A DNA stretch of 26,653 bases. Origin: an uncultured Bacillota bacterium. Lineage in GTDB: Bacteria > Bacillota_I > Bacilli_A > RF39 > UBA660. Below the pieces are notes generated by a model. That model was not told the DNA's origin, did no database searches, and was given only the letters and a program-made list of their open reading frames with translations. The stretch lies in the NCBI GenBank assembly GCA_947168865.1, contig CAMVNN010000009.1, forward strand, positions 1-26,653, given 5' to 3'. This document shows, one piece after another, positions 3,367 to 26,653 of the stretch (positions within the stretch are counted from its first letter, which is position 1; every line of letters starts with the position of its first letter). The translations under genes were made by a program, and so were the position numbers.

Positions 3367-3657
3367 ATGGCAAAAAAAGGTCAAAAACAAAACAGAATTG
3401 ATGAGGAATTGATTCTGAAAATAGTTAAAGAAAAGAAGAAAGGAAAAACATATTCATATTTAGCTAATAAATATGGTGTATCAGATGGAAGCATAGCTAC
3501 TTGGGTAAGGAAATATACCTATAAAGGATATATAACAAGAGAAAAACAAGGTGTTAAGAAAAATCCATCAAATATGACAATTGAGGAATTAAGAATTGAG
3601 GTGGATATATTAAAAAAATTCCAAGCCTTCCTCAAACAACAACAAGAAAGAAAATAG
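3367..3657 (+). CDS. IS3-family transposase OrfA
   Basis: The 96-aa basic protein carries a helix-turn-helix (about residues 10-50, with YLANKYGVSDGSIATWVRKY). A coiled coil follows (about 70-95, MTIEELRIEVDILKKFQAFL). It is the DNA-binding half of an IS150-type transposase and binds the element's ends. Seven A's at 3612-3618 (tta aaa aaa ttc in the orfA frame) form an A_AAA_AAA slippery site. From there the -1 frame stays open into orfB. OrfA alone normally acts as an inhibitor, and the OrfAB fusion made by frameshifting is the active transposase; this is family knowledge. The ribosome site AAGGAGGT is strong and well spaced. Confidence 0.92.
   Translation: MAKKGQKQNRIDEELILKIVKEKKKGKTYSYLANKYGVSDGSIATWVRKYTYKGYITREKQGVKKNPSNMTIEELRIEVDILKKFQAFLKQQQERK
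3612..3618 (+). other. probable programmed -1 frameshift site (A7)
   Basis: The heptamer A AAA AAA sits near the end of orfA. After a -1 slip the reading continues as IPSLPQTTTRKKIEFVEL and then, without a stop, through the ATG at 3699 into orfB. This is the usual way IS150-type elements make OrfAB. Confidence 0.7.
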
Positions 3658-3698
3658 AATTTGTAGAATTAAATAAGAACAAATATAAAATATCAACT

Positions 3699-4451
3699 AT
3701 GTGTAGAGTATTAAATATAACGAGACAAAATTATTATAAATATAGAAAAACAGTTGATAAAGATTATAATGATTATTTGGTAATTAAGAAGGTATTTGAG
3801 GAAGGCAAAGAATTATATGGAGCTAGAAGGTTAAAAAAAGCTATATTAAATGAAATAGGATGGATTGTTAATTTAAAGAAAATAAGAAGAATAATGAAAA
3901 AATATGATATGAAAGTTAAGTATCATAAAGTATTTAGAAAAAATATGATAGCTAAAGTAATAGAAGAGAATGTTAAACCAAATTTATTAAAAAGAAATTT
4001 TAATTGTGAACATATTAATCAAAAATGGTCAACAGATATAACATACATTATTCATAATGGTAAGAGAGCTTATTTATCATCAATAATGGATTTATATACA
4101 AGAAATATTATTGCCTATAAGATAAGTTATCATATGGATAATACACTCGTTATGGATACATTAAATGAAGCTATTCGTAAACAAAAAGATGTGCATGGAG
4201 TAATCTTGCATTCAGATCAAGGTTTCCAATACACATCTAACGAATACAAAGCTATCTGCGAGTCAAATGGAATAATAATTTCCATGAGCCATAAAGGTTC
4301 TCCCGTAGATAACTCACCTATAGAGAGTTTCCATTCCAATCTTAAAAGAGAAACTCTCCGTAGTTATAATATCACATCTTTGAAAGAATATATACAACTT
4401 GTTAAAGATTGGATATTATTTTATAATACAAATAGAATTAGACTTAAATAG
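3699..4451 (+). CDS. IS3-family transposase OrfB (DDE integrase core)
   Basis: This 250-aa catalytic half has an HTH_21-like N-terminus (ITRQNYYKYRK, GARRLKKAI) and an rve integrase core. The catalytic triad is intact: D113 (WSTDITY), D173 (HSDQGFQ) and E209 (SPIESFHSNLKRE), with exactly 35 residues between the last two. It is probably translated mainly as the OrfAB fusion, because the frame is open from the A7 slip site at 3612 and the ATG at 3699 has no good ribosome site. It ends at FYNTNRIRLK. Relatives usually continue about 15 residues (a G-x-SP-x-EYR segment), so the tail may be shortened by a TAG. Confidence 0.9.
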   Translation: MCRVLNITRQNYYKYRKTVDKDYNDYLVIKKVFEEGKELYGARRLKKAILNEIGWIVNLKKIRRIMKKYDMKVKYHKVFRKNMIAKVIEENVKPNLLKRNFNCEHINQKWSTDITYIIHNGKRAYLSSIMDLYTRNIIAYKISYHMDNTLVMDTLNEAIRKQKDVHGVILHSDQGFQYTSNEYKAICESNGIIISMSHKGSPVDNSPIESFHSNLKRETLRSYNITSLKEYIQLVKDWILFYNTNRIRLK

Positions 4452-15395: not shown

Positions 15396-15421
15396 AAAAT
15401 TGGTTTTAAAACCAATTTTTT
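15395..15421. terminator. bidirectional terminator
   Basis: AAAAATTGGTTT pairs with AAACCAATTTTT around a short TTAA centre, with T's on both strands. It separates the convergent pilin and InlB-repeat genes. Confidence 0.88.
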
Positions 15422-16662
15422 TATTTTAATGTTGCATCAATTGTTTTAACGCATTTGTTATTTAATAAATTGTACTCGCTGTCGCAGTATTTTATTTTGT
15501 CACTAAGCGGGAAACAACCACCATTCATACCATTGACACCGCTGTATTGATTTGGATTGCTAATATAAGCGTAGTTATCAGAACATGTGTAAGTAATGTT
15601 TACATTAGCATCATCACGATCATAATAACATTTACTATTCCTGCTATTCCATTTATGGCTTCTTGATGTACAGTTAGATGAATTTTGTTGTTCATAGCTA
15701 TCTTCAACAATACCATAGAAACAATAATATGTACCAATTTGGAATAAATCTCCTTTTACTGTTTCAGTATGACCATAAGGTTTTATTATTGTTTTTGTCC
15801 CACATTCTTTATTAGAATCTTTTCTAGCAGCAACTGTTATTGTTACACATTTGCCGTTGTAATCAAATCCTCTTTCACCACACTTGGTTTTTACACTAGC
15901 TTCAATGGTACATTTAGTTTCATCTAATTTGTATCCACTTGGACAACTATAAGTTTTCCATTTAGCATATAAAGTCATATTTCCTTTAATAGTTGTTCCA
16001 TTCTTAACTTCACTGCCTTGTTTAGTAAACCAACCATTGAAAACTGAATTTTCTTTAGTTGGATTTTTTGGTAATGATAATTTTTCACCATCATTTAAAG
16101 TTATGCTGTTTACTTTAGAACCGCCATTAGAATTAAAGCTTACTGTGTATTTTGTGGTTTCTTTTTGTTCCCATTTAGCATAAAGGGTAATATCTTCTGC
16201 CAAAAGAGCACCCGTTTTAATTGGCATTTCATTGCCATCATACCAACCGTAGAAAGTATACCCATCTTTTGTTGGGACTGTTGGTTCTACAAATTGTTCA
16301 TTGCTTTCTAAATAAATTGGTTCAATTGAAGAACCACCATTAGTTTCAAAAGTAACTTTGATTTTTTTAGTTCCATCACTAATCCAATGAGCTTTTAAGG
16401 TAACGTCTTCTTTAAAAACAGATTTTTCATTTGCTTTTAAATCTTTGTAATACCAACCATCAAATGTATTTCCTTCTTTGGTTGGAGTAGGAAGTTTGGC
16501 TGTTTCACCCTTAACAACTTTAATACTTTCGACTTTAGATCCACCATTAGAATCAAAGGTTATCGTAACTTTGTTATTTCCAAGTGTAAGAAAAATAACA
16601 ATGCCTATGATAGCTAATACCCCAATTATGCAACATATAATAATAGTTGTTTTACTTTTCAT
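15421..16662 (-). CDS. membrane-anchored InlB B-repeat (Listeria-Bacteroides repeat) surface protein
   Basis: The 413-aa protein has one N-terminal membrane helix (about 5-27) and three tandem InlB B-repeats (about 31-93, 101-164, 172-235). Each repeat has the pattern VxFxxNGGS...F.GWY...TLYAKW. The C-terminal part (236-413) is Cys-rich: I count 12 cysteines, with CPSGYKLDETKC- and CGERGFDYNGKC-like pairs resembling small disulfide-linked modules. The domain faces outward, probably binding host or matrix material; the ligand is unknown. The ATG at 16660-16662 follows GGAGGGAG. It is monocistronic with a clear promoter. Confidence 0.88.
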   Translation of the reverse strand: MKSKTTIIICCIIGVLAIIGIVIFLTLGNNKVTITFDSNGGSKVESIKVVKGETAKLPTPTKEGNTFDGWYYKDLKANEKSVFKEDVTLKAHWISDGTKKIKVTFETNGGSSIEPIYLESNEQFVEPTVPTKDGYTFYGWYDGNEMPIKTGALLAEDITLYAKWEQKETTKYTVSFNSNGGSKVNSITLNDGEKLSLPKNPTKENSVFNGWFTKQGSEVKNGTTIKGNMTLYAKWKTYSCPSGYKLDETKCTIEASVKTKCGERGFDYNGKCVTITVAARKDSNKECGTKTIIKPYGHTETVKGDLFQIGTYYCFYGIVEDSYEQQNSSNCTSRSHKWNSRNSKCYYDRDDANVNITYTCSDNYAYISNPNQYSGVNGMNGGCFPLSDKIKYCDSEYNLLNNKCVKTIDATLK

Positions 16663-18914: not shown

Positions 18915-21161
18915 ATGTTTACAAACTTTAGTGCAGAAGCTCATGAATTAATTATTAAAGCTCATGAGGAAATGATGAAGTTAAAGCATTCTTTTATTGG
19001 AACAGAACATATTTTATTAGCTTTTTTGAGTTTCTCAAATAGTATTTCTAAAAAACTAAATCAAGAAAAAATAACATATGAGAAAGTAAGAAAAGAAATA
19101 ATTGAAACAATAGGATATGGAGAAACTAAAACTAAATTATTTATTTATACACCATTATTAAAAAAAATAATTGAAGATTCTATTTTAGAAGCAAATGTTA
19201 ATAATTCTAAAGTTACCATTGAAACAATATTTAATCATCTCATATCTGAAGGTGATGGTATAGCATGTAGAATTATGATAGAACTAGGTTTTGAGTTTAG
19301 TAAAGTTGAGACATTTAATAAAATTAAAAAAACTAAAAAATTACTATTAAATGAAATAGGAACAGATTTAAATAAAAAAGCCAAAGCATTAGAGTTAGAT
19401 CCTGCTATAGGCCGTGATTTTGAAATTAAAAGAGTTATTGAAATACTTTCTAGACGTACTAAAAATAATCCAATTTTAGTTGGTAAAGCAGGTGTTGGTA
19501 AAACGGCTATAGTTGAGGAATTGGCTAGAAAAATTGTTTTTGATGAAGTCCCTCAAAACTTGAAAAATAAAAGGATAATTAGTTTAGACATGGCTAGTAC
19601 AGTAGCTGGAACTAAATATCGTGGAGAATTTGAAGAAAGAATGAAAAAAATTATCAAAGAAGTTGAAGAAAATGATGATATTATTCTTTTCATCGATGAA
19701 ATTCACACTATTGTTGGAGCAGGGGGAGCAGAGGGGGCAATCGATGCTTCAAACATTTTAAAACCAGCTTTAGCTCGAAATAAGGTTCGTATAATTGGAG
19801 CAACAACTCTTGAGGAATATAAAAAATTTATTGAGGATGATCATGCTTTAGATAGGAGATTTCAACAGATATTAGTTGAACCTACTAATCGCGATGAAAC
19901 AGTTAATATTTTGAAAAAAATAAAAAATATATATTCCAACTATCATAATGTTATTATAAGTGATGAAATGATTGAAAAATTGGTTGATTTAACTGATAAA
20001 TATATATATGATCGTAATGAACCAGATGCTTCTATAGATGTATTAGATGAAGTTTTAGCAAATGTTTCTATAAGAGAAAATGAAAGCAGTAAAAAGCATA
20101 AAAGTTTGACTAAAGAGTTGTTAGAATTAAAACATTTATCACTTAGTAAATTAAAAAATGGTATTATAGCTTCTGAAAATATAAAAGAGAAAAAAATAAT
20201 GAGTGAAATCAATAAATTAGAATTAGAAAATATACAAACAATCAAAGAAGTTACATTAGTAGATATCGCGAATGTGATTTCGGTTAAAACAAAAACACCT
20301 ATATATGAAATAATGTCTGATAATTTAAAAATTTTAAACAATATTGAGAAAACTTTAAAAGATAAAATAATAGGTCAAGATGAAGCTTTAAATAGTGTTA
20401 TTAACTTATCTAAAAGATTGAAGTTAGGATTCAAAGATGACAACAAATGTTACTCGTTATTGTTTGTTGGTCCCACTGGAGTTGGAAAGACATATTTGGC
20501 TTTAGAAACTGGAAAACTTTTAAGTAATAATGTCATTAAACTAGATATGAGTGAATATGGAGAAGCACATTCTATAAGTAAAATAATTGGAGCACCTCCA
20601 GGATATGTTGGCTATGAAGATAATCATAACATATTAGACGAAATAAGAAATTATAATAGTGGGGTAATTATTTTAGATGAAATTGAGAAAGCTCATCCTG
20701 ATATTTTAAACTTATTTTTGCAGATTTTAGATCAAAGTTTTATAAAAGATTCTAAAGGTAGAATAGTTCATTTGAACAATTATATTATTATTATGACTTC
20801 TAATGCTGGATATGAGAATAATAAAGTTGGATTTAAAAGTAAAAATGGCATTAACGATTTAAAAGATTATTATTCACTTTCATTTTTAAATAGAATAGAT
20901 AATATAGTTAGATTTGATTATTTAGATGAGGAAAATGTAATAAAAATAATAAATAGAAAAATGCATGCAATGATAAAAAAATATGAAAATAGGGGAATTA
21001 AATTTAAATATAATGTTAAAGTACGAACCGATATTTTAAATAATATTGAATATAATATATTTGGAGCTAGAAAAATAGATAAATATATCAAAGATAACAT
21101 TGAATCAAAATTAATAGATGAAATAATATCTAAAAATAATTTGGTCCTTTTAAATAATTAA
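18915..21161 (+). CDS. clpC: ClpC-type AAA+ unfoldase
   Basis: The 748-aa Hsp100 protein unfolds substrates for the ClpP peptidase. The N-domain holds two Clp-N repeats (about 3-140). D1 has Walker A GKAGVGKT near 190, Walker B ILFIDEIH near 258, and DHALDRRF. A short middle region (about 385-440) is next. D2 has GPTGVGKT near 519 and [13 protein letters not shown] near 585. A VGF loop near residue 638 matches the IGF/VGF tripeptide that docks on ClpP, so it is ClpC/ClpA-like rather than ClpB. It is shorter than usual ClpC (810-850 aa). The mcsA, mcsB and ctsR genes that accompany Bacillus clpC are absent. It has its own terminator. Confidence 0.93.
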
Positions 21162-21271: not shown

Positions 21272-21907
21272 ATGATAGAGTGTCAGATTGAGGTCTTTTT
21301 AAATATATTTACAATGGATCAAGATAAACTCAAAATCTTGCTTTTGAAAAAAGAGGGCAGTACAATATGGAGACTTCCGAGTAGACTTCTTAAAATAGAT
21401 GAGTCTCTTGAAGCATCTGCAGGTAAGATTTGCAATAAATTTAAGCTTAATCCAGAAATACTTAAAGAATGTCATACTTTTAGTAATGTTAATCGTAATA
21501 AAGAAAGAAGAACGATTGCAGTTAGTTATATGACAATAATCAATAAGTATAGTTTGAAAAATTATGATTTTGAATATGAGTTATTCGATATTAATGATAT
21601 TCCAAAGATGGCTTTTGATCATGGAGATATTATTAATAATGCAATTTATTGTTTAAAAAAAGAACTGCTTAATTTAGACAATTTAAAAATTATTTTTCCT
21701 GCTGATTTTACTCTTCCAGAACTTCAGAAAGTATATGAGGAAGTCCTAGAAGAAGAAATTGATCGTAGGAATTTCCGCAAGAAGTTTTTACCATTAGTTG
21801 TCGAAACAGGCGAGAAAAATGAAATTTCAACAGGAGGGAGGCCTGCTAAACTTTATCGTTTTTTAGATAAAGATTTAGACAGGAATTTGTTTAATGTTAT
21901 CAAGTAA
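21272..21907 (+). CDS. NrtR-family transcriptional regulator (degenerate Nudix plus winged helix)
   Basis: The 211-aa protein is built like NrtR. A Nudix-fold N-domain (about 5-135) has a degenerate Nudix box (SLEASAGKICNKFKL lacks the REUXEE glutamates), so it senses rather than hydrolyses. A winged-helix C-domain (about 150-205) carries the family signature FTLPELQKVYEEVL...DRRNFRKKFLPL...GRPAKLYRF. NrtR proteins control NAD salvage or other nucleotide-related pathways and respond to ADP-ribose. No NAD genes are in this window. A palindrome at its own promoter suggests autoregulation. It overlaps the next gene by 14 bases. AAGGAG precedes the ATG. Confidence 0.9.
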   Translation: MIECQIEVFLNIFTMDQDKLKILLLKKEGSTIWRLPSRLLKIDESLEASAGKICNKFKLNPEILKECHTFSNVNRNKERRTIAVSYMTIINKYSLKNYDFEYELFDINDIPKMAFDHGDIINNAIYCLKKELLNLDNLKIIFPADFTLPELQKVYEEVLEEEIDRRNFRKKFLPLVVETGEKNEISTGGRPAKLYRFLDKDLDRNLFNVIK

Positions 21908-23357: not shown

Positions 23358-23404
23358 GTAAGAATATGAAACACCTGGATGTGTGTAGTGGAAAGGAGAT
23401 TATT

Positions 23405-23818
23405 ATGCCAACTATTAATCAATTAGTTAGAAAAGGTCGTGGAGAGAAAACACGTAAGAGAAAATCACCTGTTTTAGGTATTGGATATAACAGTAGAGAA
23501 AAGAAGACTACTAAGTTAGATTCACCACAAAAAAGAGGAGTTTGTACTCGTGTTGGAACATTAACTCCAAAGAAACCAAACTCAGCTTTGCGTAAGTATG
23601 CTCGTGTTCGTTTAAGTAATGGTATGGAAGTTACAGCTTACATTCCTGGAGAAGGACACAACTTACAAGAACACAGTGTAGTAATGATTCGTGGTGGACG
23701 TGTTAAGGACTTAATCGGTGTTAGATATCACATTATTCGTGGTACACTTGATACTGCTGGAGTTGAAAAACGTCGTCAAGGTCGTTCAAAATATGGTGCT
23801 AAAAAACCAAAAAAGTAA
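23405..23818 (+). CDS. rpsL: 30S ribosomal protein S12
   Basis: The 137-aa decoding-centre protein is read from ATG 23405 (AAAGGAG upstream; [13 protein letters not shown] start as in Bacillus). A reading from 23366 would run into the leader. The [11 protein letters not shown] loop (K56, the K43 of E. coli counted with Met) is wild type, as is the RGGRVKDL lysine K101. The next position is unusual: KDLIGVRYH has Ile104 where nearly all bacteria have Pro (E. coli P91 with Met, P90 in older numbering). D102, the methylthiolation site, is kept. It opens the rpsL-rpsG-fusA operon. Confidence 0.98.
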
Positions 23819-23835
23819 AATAAAGGAGGATAAAT

Positions 23836-24303
23836 ATGCGTAAAAGACGTGCAGTAAAAAGAGACGTTTTAGCAGATCCAATATATAATTCAAAATTAGT
23901 TACTAAACTTATTAATAGTTTAATGATTGATGGTAAAAAAGGACAAGCTCAAACAATTCTTTATAAAGCATTTGATATAGTAAAAGAAAAAACAGGCGAT
24001 GATCCAATGACTGTTTTTGAAAAAGCTATGGAAAACATTAAACCAGCTCTAGAAGTTAAATCTCGTAGAGTTGGTGGTGCTAACTATCAAGTTCCAATTG
24101 AAGTTAAGGCTGATCGTAGTCAAGCATTAGGACTTCGTTGGTTAGTACAATATAGTCGTTTAAGAGGTGGACACTCAATGAGTGAAAAGCTTGCAAGCGA
24201 AATAATTGATGCTTCTAATGGTGTAGGAGGATCAGTTAAAAAACGTGAAGATACACATCGTATGGCAGAAGCTAATAAGGCATTTGCTCATTATCGTTGG
24301 TAG
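23836..24303 (+). CDS. rpsG: 30S ribosomal protein S7
   Basis: The 155-aa protein starts 30S head assembly by binding 16S rRNA and contacts the E site. It has the standard segments [52 protein letters not shown] and the C-terminal [24 protein letters not shown] lies upstream of the ATG. The spacing is 17 bases after rpsL and 14 before fusA. Nothing unusual is seen. Confidence 0.98.
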
Positions 24304-24317
24304 AAAGGTGATTAAGT

Positions 24318-26390
24318 ATGGCTCGTGAATATAGTTTAGAACATACACGTAATTTCGGTATCATGGCTCACATCGATGCTGGAAAAACGACTACCACTGA
24401 AAGAATCTTATTCCATACAGGAAAAATTCACAAAATCGGAGAAACTCACGATGGTGAATCTCAAATGGACTGGATGGAACAAGAACAAGAACGTGGTATT
24501 ACTATTACATCAGCTGCAACTACAGCTTTCTGGAAAGGTTATAGACTTAATATAATTGATACTCCAGGACATGTAGATTTTACAGTTGAAGTATCAAGAT
24601 CACTTCGTGTACTAGATGGTGCAGTTGCACTTTTAGACTCTCAAGCTGGAGTTGAACCTCAAACAGAAACTGTTTGGAGACAAGCAACTGAATTTAAAGT
24701 ACCTCGTTTGATCTGCTGCAACAAAATGGGAAAAATGGGTGCAGACTTTGAATATAGTTTAAAATCTATTAAAGATCGTTTAGGCGTTTTAGCTAAACCA
24801 CTTGTTTGGCCAATCGGATCAGGCGATGAATTTAATGGAATTATTGACTTATTAACAAGAACTACTTATCAATATGATAGGGCTCAAGAAGAAAATCCAA
24901 AAATCATTGAAATTCCTGCTGAACTTAAGGATTTAGTTGAAGAAAAACGTAATGATTTAATTGAAACAGTTGTTGAATTCGATGAAGAAATGATGGAAAA
25001 ATATCTTGAGGGTGAAGAATTAACTGTTGATGAAATTAAAAGATGTATTCGTAAGGGTACACTTGCTGCTGAATTCTTCCCAGTATTATGCTCAGATGCA
25101 TTAGGAAATACTGGTGTTAAATTACTTCTAGATGCTGTAATTGATTACTTACCAGCTCCAACTGATGTAGAATCAATTAAAGGTGTTGATGAAAGAGGAA
25201 ATGAAGTAGCTCGTCATCCATCTGATTCTGAACCATTTGCTGCATTAGCATTCAAAATCATGACAGATCCATTTGTTGGACGTTTAACATTCTTCAGAGT
25301 TTACTCTGGACATTTATCAAGCGGTTCATATGTTATGAATGCAACTAAGCAAGTTAAAGAAAGAATCGGACGTATTCTATTAATGCATGCAAATAATAGA
25401 ACTGAAATATCTGATGTATATGCTGGAGATATTGCTGCTGCAGTAGGACTTAAAAATACAACAACTGGAGATACTCTTTGTGAAGAAAAACATGAAGTTA
25501 TTTTAGAATCAATGGTATTCCCAGAACCAGTAATTCAACTTGCTGTTGAACCAAAATCAAAAGCTGATCAAGATAAAATGGCAGTTGCATTACAAAAACT
25601 TTCTGAAGAAGATCCAACATTTAGAGCATCAACTGATCAAGAAACTGGTCAAACTATCATCGCAGGTATGGGTGAACTTCACCTAGATATCATCGTTGAC
25701 AGAATGAGAAGAGAATTCAATGTTGAAGCTAATGTTGGTAAACCACAAGTATCTTATCGTGAAACAATTACTCAAGCAGGGGACTGCGAAGGTAAATATA
25801 TTAAACAATCCGGTGGTCGTGGACAATATGGTCACGTTTGGATTAAATTTGAACCAAATCCAGATAAGGGATATGAGTTCGTTGATGAAGTTGTTGGTGG
25901 TACAGTTCCAAGAGAATATATCCCAGTAACTGATAAGGGACTTCAAGATGCTATGAAAACTGGTATTTTAGCAGGTTATCCAATGATTGATGTTAAAGCA
26001 ACACTACATGATGGATCTTACCATGAAGTAGACTCAAGTGAAATGGCATTCAAGATTGCGGCTTCTATGGCTTTAAAAGAAGCTAAGAATAAATGTAAAC
26101 CAGTTATTTTAGAACCAATCATGAAAGTTCAAGTAGTTGTTCCAGAAGAATATTTAGGAACAGTTATGGGTGATATTACATCAAGAAGAGGACGTCCACT
26201 TGGACAAGAATCTCGTGGTAATGCCCTTGCAATCAATGCAATGGTTCCACTTGCTGAAATGTTTGGATATGCAACTTCTTTGCGTTCAAATACACAAGGT
26301 CGTGGTACATTTGTAATGGAATTTGATCACTATGAAGAAGTTCCAAAAAATATCGCTGAAGAAATAATTAAGAAAAATAGTGGTAACTAG
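24318..26390 (+). CDS. fusA: elongation factor G with altered G4 and G5 motifs
   Basis: The 690-aa translocase has all five EF-G domains. The P-loop [11 protein letters not shown], effector [17 protein letters not shown] and domain IV tip region ([13 protein letters not shown]) are normal. The guanine-specificity motif NKxD, however, reads N135-K136-M137-G138 (aac aaa atg gga). The G5 motif, usually C-G-S-A, reads C-S259-D260-A261, adding an Asp. In Ras-like GTPases the G5 Ser side chain contacts the G4 Asp, so the new Asp may replace the lost one; that is inference. It is the only EF-G in view and sits in the str operon, so it is presumably the main translocase. The usual tufA does not follow. 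Confidence 0.97.
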
Positions 26391-26398
26391 GAGTTAAA

Positions 26399-26653
26399 AT
26401 GAAAATCATAACTAAAAAAGGTGGTTCAAAAGCCTATTTGGGCATTGTTGTTTTGAATAGAAAAAATCAAGGAATTACATTAAAAAAAGCACTTGAATCT
26501 ATGAAAGAGATTAAAATCGAGCCACCTGTAGTTATTGATGAACCTGTATTCATTGATGAATATAATTTTCCAAAATCAAAAATACAAATGATTCGTTCAA
26601 TTAAATTTGAAAATATGAGTAATCAAACTCAAAATAGTTTTCAAAAAACATTA
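26399..26653 (+). CDS. unrecognised protein, cut by the window end
   Basis: The 5' end of a gene: 85 codons are open to the last base. ATG 26399 has CTAGGAG upstream, 8 bases after the fusA stop, so it is probably in the same operon. The protein begins MKIITKKGGSKAYLGIVVLN and is basic, then has EPPVVIDEPVFIDEY. No membrane segment is seen. It is not EF-Tu, which usually follows fusA. Confidence 0.7.
   Translation, partial: MKIITKKGGSKAYLGIVVLNRKNQGITLKKALESMKEIKIEPPVVIDEPVFIDEYNFPKSKIQMIRSIKFENMSNQTQNSFQKTL

Follow-up and report, generated by a model that had tools for sequence, protein, structure and literature searches.

In a 26,653-nucleotide stretch of DNA from an uncultured Bacillota bacterium of the RF39 lineage (contig CAMVNN010000009.1 of assembly GCA_947168865.1, positions 1 to 26,653; hereafter the window), the fusA gene encodes an elongation factor G (EF-G) that lacks the aspartate of its G4 motif and carries an additional one in its G5 motif. 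In 613 distinct EF-G strings covering both sites, the loss at residue 138 and the gain at residue 260 occurred together or not at all. Judging from the sequence comparisons and from an analogous case in the GTPase HypB, Asp260 very probably takes over guanine recognition from Asp138, with specificity for guanosine triphosphate (GTP) kept. EF-Gs with Asp260 and a residue other than Asp at 138 are called swapped below. The gene and those parts of it that bear on this finding are:

24318..26390, + strand: fusA, elongation factor G, 690 amino acids (open reading frame; family TIGR00484; best solved relative S. aureus EF-G)
24720..24731, + strand: G4 motif codons N135 K136 M137 G138 (aac aaa atg gga; NKMG for NKxD), from the sequence and alignment columns
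24729-24731, + strand: Gly138 codon gga, from the sequence
25089..25100, + strand: G5 motif codons C258 S259 D260 A261 (tgc tca gat gca; usual C-G-[ST]-A), from the sequence and alignment columns
25095-25097, + strand: Asp260 codon gat, from the sequence
24714..24719, + strand: Cys133-Cys134, directly before G4, from the sequence and the column comparison
24678..25172, + strand: residues 121-285, the G4-to-G5 block including the G' subdomain, with an excess of swapped-versus-unswapped differences

Both codon sets read as the initial annotation of the window had described them. The protein therefore falls outside the canonical NKxD pattern, having neither Asp as the fourth residue of G4 nor Ser or Thr at residue 260. 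The remaining nucleotide-binding motifs, G1 (AHIDAGKT), G2 (RGITI) and G3 (DTPGH), are intact. Against the NCBIfam model TIGR00484 the protein scored 1174.7 bits over residues 1-687 (cut-off 659.4), and S. aureus EF-G (2xex), its best solved relative, was matched with 1035 bits over residues 1-689.

EF-G sequences for comparison were gathered from a first protein search (the best 120 of 7999 scored proteins, one being the window's own), from 80 loci of a species-genome scan in which at least 592 stretches matched, from a sample of 385 genomes of the order of a close relative (locus L001), and from searches seeded with NKMT and NKMA relatives, which added 240 proteins (the best 120 of about 8000 each). 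The pooled 641 sequences comprised 618 distinct strings, of which 613 contained both sites and 5 were fragments without residue 138; collapsing contained fragments left 598 rows. The set is no random sample: swapped sequences served as search seeds, and the genome patterns required a non-Asp codon after NKM. Its proportion of swapped EF-Gs therefore does not correspond to their natural frequency. The coupling of residues 138 and 260 is unaffected by this seeding, since the patterns ignore G5.

Asp138 was present in 332 of the 613 strings, together with Thr260 in 273, Ser260 in 59 and Asp260 in none. The other 281 had Gly (254), Ala (12), Thr (10) or Cys (5) at residue 138, and all 281 carried Asp260. 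A mixed state with only one of the two sites changed was found in 0 of the 613 strings. The collapsed set gave the same result: 329 of 598 rows with Asp138 (Thr260 in 270, Ser260 in 59, none with Asp260) and 269 without it (Gly 244, Ala 12, Thr 9, Cys 4), all 269 with Asp260 and none mixed. Among the query and the best 120 of the 7999 proteins, 85 rows combined Gly138 with Asp260 and 36 combined Asp138 with Ser260 or Thr260. Asn135 and Lys136 were invariant (613/613), and the usual strings were found in nearly all swapped rows at G1 (AHIDAGKT, 279/281) and G2 (ERGITIT, 279/281) and in all at G3 (IDTPGH, 281/281).

The same Gly138/Asp260 pair was carried by 11 database proteins 95-98% identical to the window EF-G (the window's own protein excluded) and by the 98% identical EF-G of L001, a locus from a metagenome-assembled genome of the uncultured Erysipelotrichaceae bacterium RUG11241, where RUG presumably denotes a rumen series. 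Swapped EF-Gs were found in one bacterial group, some members of which come from animal guts. The joint occurrence of Gly138 and Asp260 in close relatives, on which the initial annotation had made its proposal depend, thus holds throughout the 613 strings, and no relative with Gly138 and without Asp260 was encountered among those found. At the sequence level, the pairing of the two residues in EF-G can be regarded as confirmed, as real and as exceeding chance.

Changes accompanying the swap were sought by comparing alignment columns between 22 independent pairs of an Asp138-type and a swapped sequence (cross pairs) and 53 same-state pairs. Residue 260 differed in 22/22 cross pairs and in 0/53 same-state pairs; residue 138, which differs in all 22 cross pairs by construction, did so in 3/53. 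Next came residue 133 (Phe to Cys or Met; 17/22 versus 0/53), residue 259 (Gly to Ser, Ala or Thr; 13/22 versus 5/53), residue 263 (11/22 versus 3/53) and residue 134 (13/22 versus 7/53). These most enriched columns all lie within or beside the G4 and G5 loops. Phe occupied residue 133 in 330 of the 332 Asp138-type strings and in 131 of the 281 swapped ones, the others having Cys (121) or Met (29). Gly259 was found in 332/332 Asp138-type and 146/281 swapped strings, the latter showing four residues at this site (Gly, Ser, Ala, Thr). Because residues 133 and 259 change in only part of the lineages, the minimal swap consists of residues 138 and 260. Just past the P-loop, residue 26 was Thr in 273 of the 281 swapped strings and Cys (167), Thr (114), Phe (26) or others in the 332 unswapped ones; it changed in 12/22 cross pairs and 12/53 same-state pairs.

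For phylogenetic analysis, 597 nearly full-length strings were kept out of 606 distinct ones. Clustering them separately for the two states, at 93% identity, left 188 rows, and cutting the distant outgroup from 42 rows to 9 gave 155 representatives. Thirteen loci added later are included in the counts and not in the trees. On the whole-gene tree (IQ-TREE, G4 and G5 columns removed) the state changed 23 times, and in all 13 well-supported independent pairs the two sites changed jointly and always in the same direction (sign test p 0.00024). The tree of the G domain, with the motif columns removed, had 11 state changes and 7/7 well-supported independent pairs in which both sites changed; for the tree of residues 286-690 (domains II-V) the figures were 32 and 18/18. 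A preliminary FastTree run gave 14 state changes. The counts of 14 and 23 overstate the number of origins, and the cautious figure is that of the seven pairs on the G-domain tree.

Since the three trees disagree, the G domain has at least partly its own history. Sharp breakpoints were seen in three protein pairs: P0264 and P0320 had 31 differences in residues 1-295 and 0 in 296-690, P0013 and P0119 differed at 50 sites up to residue 284 and at 3 after it, and P0293 and L014 at 26 sites up to residue 263 and at 1 after it. The window EF-G itself was nearest to the unswapped P0021 on the whole-gene and 286-690 trees and to the swapped P0013 on the G-domain tree. From these breakpoint profiles and the tree-dependent nearest neighbor, it appears that the swapped G domain probably moved between lineages as the 5' part of fusA recombined. 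Chimeric assembly is a possible source of single mosaic fusA cases, and convergent repacking could draw swapped G domains together on a tree. Several independent origins of the swapped state are nevertheless likely from the sequences, because four different residues occur at position 138 and the companions at 133 and 259 differ.

The differences between the two states are concentrated in the G4-to-G5 block (residues 121-285), the limits of which, like those of the G' subdomain within it, we take to be approximate. Without the pocket columns, this block showed 0.231 differences per site in cross pairs versus 0.175 in same-state pairs, and residues 286-690 showed no excess (0.072 versus 0.083). 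The median ratio of the two regions was 3.38 in cross pairs (n=22) and 2.09 in same-state pairs (n=53; Mann-Whitney p 5e-6). On the DNA level, L279 and L021 differed by 48/240 amino acids in the G domain and 10/354 in the rest, at synonymous divergences of 0.36 and 0.35. Synonymous divergence in G domain and rest was also about equal for L143/L175 (0.28, 0.25) and L283/L014 (0.29, 0.28), and was higher in the G domain for L127/L248 (0.20 versus 0.12) and L114/L148 (0.43 versus 0.30). When pairs were binned by synonymous divergence, the cross-pair excess was large only below 0.20 and small or absent from 0.20-0.25 upwards; at 0.25-0.30 the ratio was 1.34 in all three pair classes. The ratios of 6.5 and 9.3 at low synonymous divergence came from 6 pairs, all apparently L248 against swapped relatives and hence one event. 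Both accelerated change and imported segments are possible sources of the excess in these sequences. A burst of point changes, the first reading of this excess, is kept beside recombination, to which at least part of it is due given the sharp breakpoints in the three protein pairs.

In the order sample, the NKMG pattern matched in 35 of 385 genomes. A wider pattern, in which NKM precedes a codon whose middle base is C, G or T (codons with A there, such as those for Asn, Lys and Glu, thus being omitted), matched in 53 of 385, and the G5 residue was Asp in all 53. The EF-Gs of this sample that were read at G5 were those of about 150 listed matches and of all 53 pattern matches. In a class sample the wider pattern matched 7 of 395 genomes, all 7 also part of the order sample; outside that sample it matched 0 of the 341 other class genomes, the sampling lying within Bacillota and not reaching far phyla. 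EF-G was matched at E 1e-180 in 324 of the 385 order genomes, with one match each in 323; genome G024 was the sole one with two. The genomes of four swapped relatives (L001, L017, L018 and L024) each contained one EF-G above the family cut-off at a search threshold of 1e-10, and their weaker matches were partial and lay in other translational GTPases. Where read, these other GTPases keep the G4 Asp (NKCD in EF-Tu, NKID in LepA-like and TypA-like proteins); the labels rest on motif and length and not on a family search, and the IF-2-like frames lay outside this reading.

A second, standard fusA, which the initial annotation had named as evidence against its proposal, was thus not found in the four swapped relatives' genomes searched. 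Its view of the gene as the likely main EF-G is supported by the lone EF-G that exceeds the family cut-off in the 98% identical relative's genome and by the position of the gene in the str operon, the order rpsL-rpsG-fusA occupying positions 23408-26390 of the window:

23408..23818, + strand: rpsL (S12), str operon neighbor, start set within the open reading frame 23366-23818 (TIGR00981)
23836..24303, + strand: rpsG (S7), str operon neighbor (TIGR01029)

By family score, length and operon the gene is that of an EF-G, and its product is predicted to act as a ribosome-dependent GTPase and translocase.

In Ras-type GTPases, N1 and N2 of guanine donate hydrogen bonds to the G4 Asp, which the side chain of the G5 Ser adjoins. 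Because of this proximity, an Asp at the G5 position can plausibly replace the G4 Asp if the G4 side chain is removed. The swapped EF-G would then remain the ordinary translocation factor of the cell, and the wiring of its guanine pocket would differ. The carboxylate recognizing N1 and N2 would move from residue 138 in G4 to residue 260 in G5; Gly, Ala, Thr or Cys at 138 would leave space and Asp260 would serve as the acceptor, with Lys136 retained as a wall of the base pocket. Residues 133, 134, 257, 259, 262 and 263 would repack in some lineages. The all-or-none state may arise because two Asp residues would crowd and repel each other and none would leave the guanine unread. According to this proposal, the state would have arisen more than once, and recombination in the 5' part of fusA would also have spread it. 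We infer that Asp260 contacts the guanine, that the surrounding residues repack and that specificity is retained.

A structure model built from 47 sequences had a mean predicted local distance difference test score (pLDDT) of 59.6, reaching 91-94 in the blocks of ten residues between 131 and 270, and placed a strand ahead of each of the two loops (130-135 and 254-258); a single-sequence model had a mean pLDDT of 35. The 50 PDB matches listed in a fold search with the model were EF-Gs or EF-G-ribosome complexes according to their titles, with template modeling scores of about 0.4 and poor overall superposition. In FeoB, residues of G5 influence the rate of guanosine diphosphate (GDP) release, according to the available part of the report (PMC4266920), and thus the swap in EF-G may tune nucleotide exchange.

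The initial annotation had suggested that Asp260 fills the place of the missing G4 carboxylate. This idea gains support from the coupling in 613/613 strings together with all independent pairs on three trees, and from HypB of A. fulgidus, which has the same swap and, in the part of the report available, is described as binding GDP and GTP and not adenosine diphosphate (ADP) (PMC3262836). Several points weigh against it. Some swapped rows deviate elsewhere as well, L171 having AHIDAVKT instead of AHIDAGKT at G1 and P0158 and P0206 each being one residue off at G2. The contact of Asp-194 in A. fulgidus HypB was deduced from an apo structure superposed onto a relative and is described as a single hydrogen bond (to N1), compared with two by a G4 Asp, as far as the accessible text states (PMC3262836); with one bond instead of two, binding may be weaker. 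How many independent origins there were is also uncertain, because recombination within fusA is evident.

Between GTP binding kept and nucleotide preference changed, the two outcomes that the initial annotation had placed side by side, the sequences favor the former and make the latter less likely. A pocket of Gly138 and Asp260 that reads adenosine (ATP), xanthosine or inosine triphosphate, or is promiscuous, finds a parallel in SpoIVA, a former GTPase turned ATPase with an altered NKxD motif. In the EF-Gs, however, Asn135 and Lys136 are invariant and the Asp stands at one fixed position in 281/281 swapped strings, unlike in SpoIVA, and a factor used in every translocation step would presumably need a large change of energy currency; we consider this explanation highly improbable. 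That the swap is an artefact of sequencing or assembly, or belongs to a decayed second copy, is hardly credible. Many of the sequences do stem from metagenome assemblies, and chimeric assembly can also yield mosaic genes, but the same pair is present in 281 distinct strings, 323 of 324 genomes have one match at E 1e-180, and reading frame, motifs and str operon position are intact in the window. The initial annotation had pointed out that one sequencing error would not produce gga, which lies two base changes away from GAT or GAC, as we confirmed; sequencing error was rejected as very unlikely given the same pair in near-identical relatives and in so many distinct strings. A decayed second EF-G copy was likewise dismissed as very unlikely, with a single EF-G above the family cut-off in each of the four swapped relatives' genomes searched.

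Other alternatives concern the history of the swap. One or very few ancient swaps may have been copied around by ordinary descent and recombination, the apparent events being largely one. The drop in state changes from 32 on the 286-690 tree to 23 on the whole-gene tree and 11 on the G-domain tree points in this direction, as do the mosaic pairs P0264/P0320 (31 versus 0) and P0013/P0119 (50 versus 3). Yet 7 well-supported independent pairs persist on the G-domain tree, the swapped forms comprise separate solutions that differ at residues 138 (Gly, Ala, Thr or Cys), 259 (Gly, Ser, Ala or Thr) and 133 (Phe, Cys or Met), and the coupling itself would be left unexplained, which makes such a history unlikely. 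It is also possible, though doubtful, that an agent binding the G4-G'-G5 segment (an inhibitor, a toxin, a regulatory nucleotide, for instance guanosine tetraphosphate (ppGpp), or an altered partner in the ribosomal stalk) exerted selection on it and that the swap came about as a by-product, altering recognition by that agent, with GTP kept. This would concern why the swap happened and is compatible with a takeover of guanine recognition by Asp260. Selection on the segment would fit the excess in residues 121-285 without pocket columns (3.38 versus 2.09, p 5e-6), the numerous G-domain amino-acid replacements that some DNA pairs (L279/L021) show with no matching rise in synonymous divergence, and the replacement of the 5' part of fusA, which would agree with a benefit. 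The agent is purely hypothetical, however, and the excess may instead stem from repacking once the swap had occurred, or from recombined segments that had divergent donors. Moreover, the ratios of 6.5 and 9.3 trace to apparently one L248 event in 6 pairs, cross and same-state pairs have nearly the same ratio from a synonymous divergence of 0.25 upwards, and the G' part varies in same-state pairs as well (0.21 per site).

A broader proposal, which we put forward as speculation and think unlikely to hold in full, is that P-loop GTPases in general follow a two-state design, with the Asp in either G4 or G5 and with EF-G and HypB representing two classes, and that the swap is under selection here: repeatedly arising swapped G domains would be exchanged between lineages as recombining modules and would alter the response to a ligand of the pocket or G' subdomain, such as a regulatory nucleotide or an inhibitor, with translation still running on GTP.

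Apart from the str operon, the window contains several features of separate interest. The open reading frame after fusA (26399-26653) had no NCBIfam match and extends past the end of the window. Two adjoining open reading frames at 3367-4451 resemble, by reading only, an insertion sequence transposase pair with helix-turn-helix and integrase-like parts. The protein encoded at 15421-16662 on the minus strand contains List_Bact_rpt repeats (TIGR02543), a repeat that occurs also in surface proteins. A Clp-family ATPase of 748 amino acids is encoded at 18915-21161 and failed to reach the cut-offs of all Clp families listed for it, and the product of 21272-21907 has weak similarity to the ADP-ribose-responsive repressor NtrR (71 bits, cut-off 400).

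The repeated loss of Asp138, in all observed cases with a second Asp gained, amounts to a natural double-mutant experiment, through which the rewiring of a strongly conserved contact in GTP-binding proteins can be studied. The coupling suggests strong epistasis at the core of the GTPase, and related pairs of swapped and unswapped EF-Gs offer many candidates for direct biochemistry. A note of caution also follows: loss of NKxD by itself does not justify declaring a GTPase inactive or altered in specificity.

No report of EF-Gs with this swap was found in the open-licence PMC literature, judged by titles and the starts of abstracts, a scope outside which most subscription papers lie. A recurrent all-or-none swap in a universal and essential GTPase thus appears to be new. 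The canonical EF-G of S. aureus (2xex) is of the same family and length, shares conserved G1-G3 motifs and is among the best matches by fold; it differs in having NKMD and CGTA where the window EF-G has NKMG and CSDA. The EFG II paralogues are likewise divergent EF-Gs, but they conserve NKxD at G4 and gSAx at G5, as the available part of their description states (PMC3150367), whereas the window gene is the EF-G of the str operon. SpoIVA, an ATPase derived from a TRAFAC GTPase, resembles the swapped EF-Gs in the loss of the G4 Asp. According to the accessible portion of the report, it has lost the G4 Lys as well, the position of the G4 Asp is poorly constrained, and the position of the G5 Ser is usually N, D or S (PMC7952092). 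It uses ATP and is no elongation factor. The swapped EF-Gs do vary at residue 138 (Gly, Ala, Thr, Cys), but Lys136 is kept in 613/613 strings and Asp260 in all 281 swapped ones, so that a loss of the SpoIVA type is not seen. A survey of guanine-binding structures, in the part available, describes many proteins without NKxD that often use Asp or Glu instead (PMC11594714).

The matching precedent found is HypB of A. fulgidus (PDB 2wsm), a member of the SIMIBI class, in which N-methylanthraniloyl (MANT)-GDP was displaced by GDP or GTP and not by ADP, as reported in the available text (PMC3262836). It reads NKVA at G4, and the D of its IIEMDLK (position 194, counted from the alignment end) is aligned with the S of IILISAT, the G5 Ser of E. 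coli HypB, and with that of M. jannaschii HypB. It differs from the window EF-G in class and function, in being one reported protein with an apo structure, and in continuing D-L-K after G5 where EF-G has D-A; recurrence or coupling is not described in the accessible part of the report (PMC3262836). As in the window EF-G, the G4 Asp is absent, the G4 Asn and Lys are kept, and an Asp occupies the aligned position of the G5 Ser. By this analogy, we infer that the pocket of the window EF-G works like that of A. fulgidus HypB.
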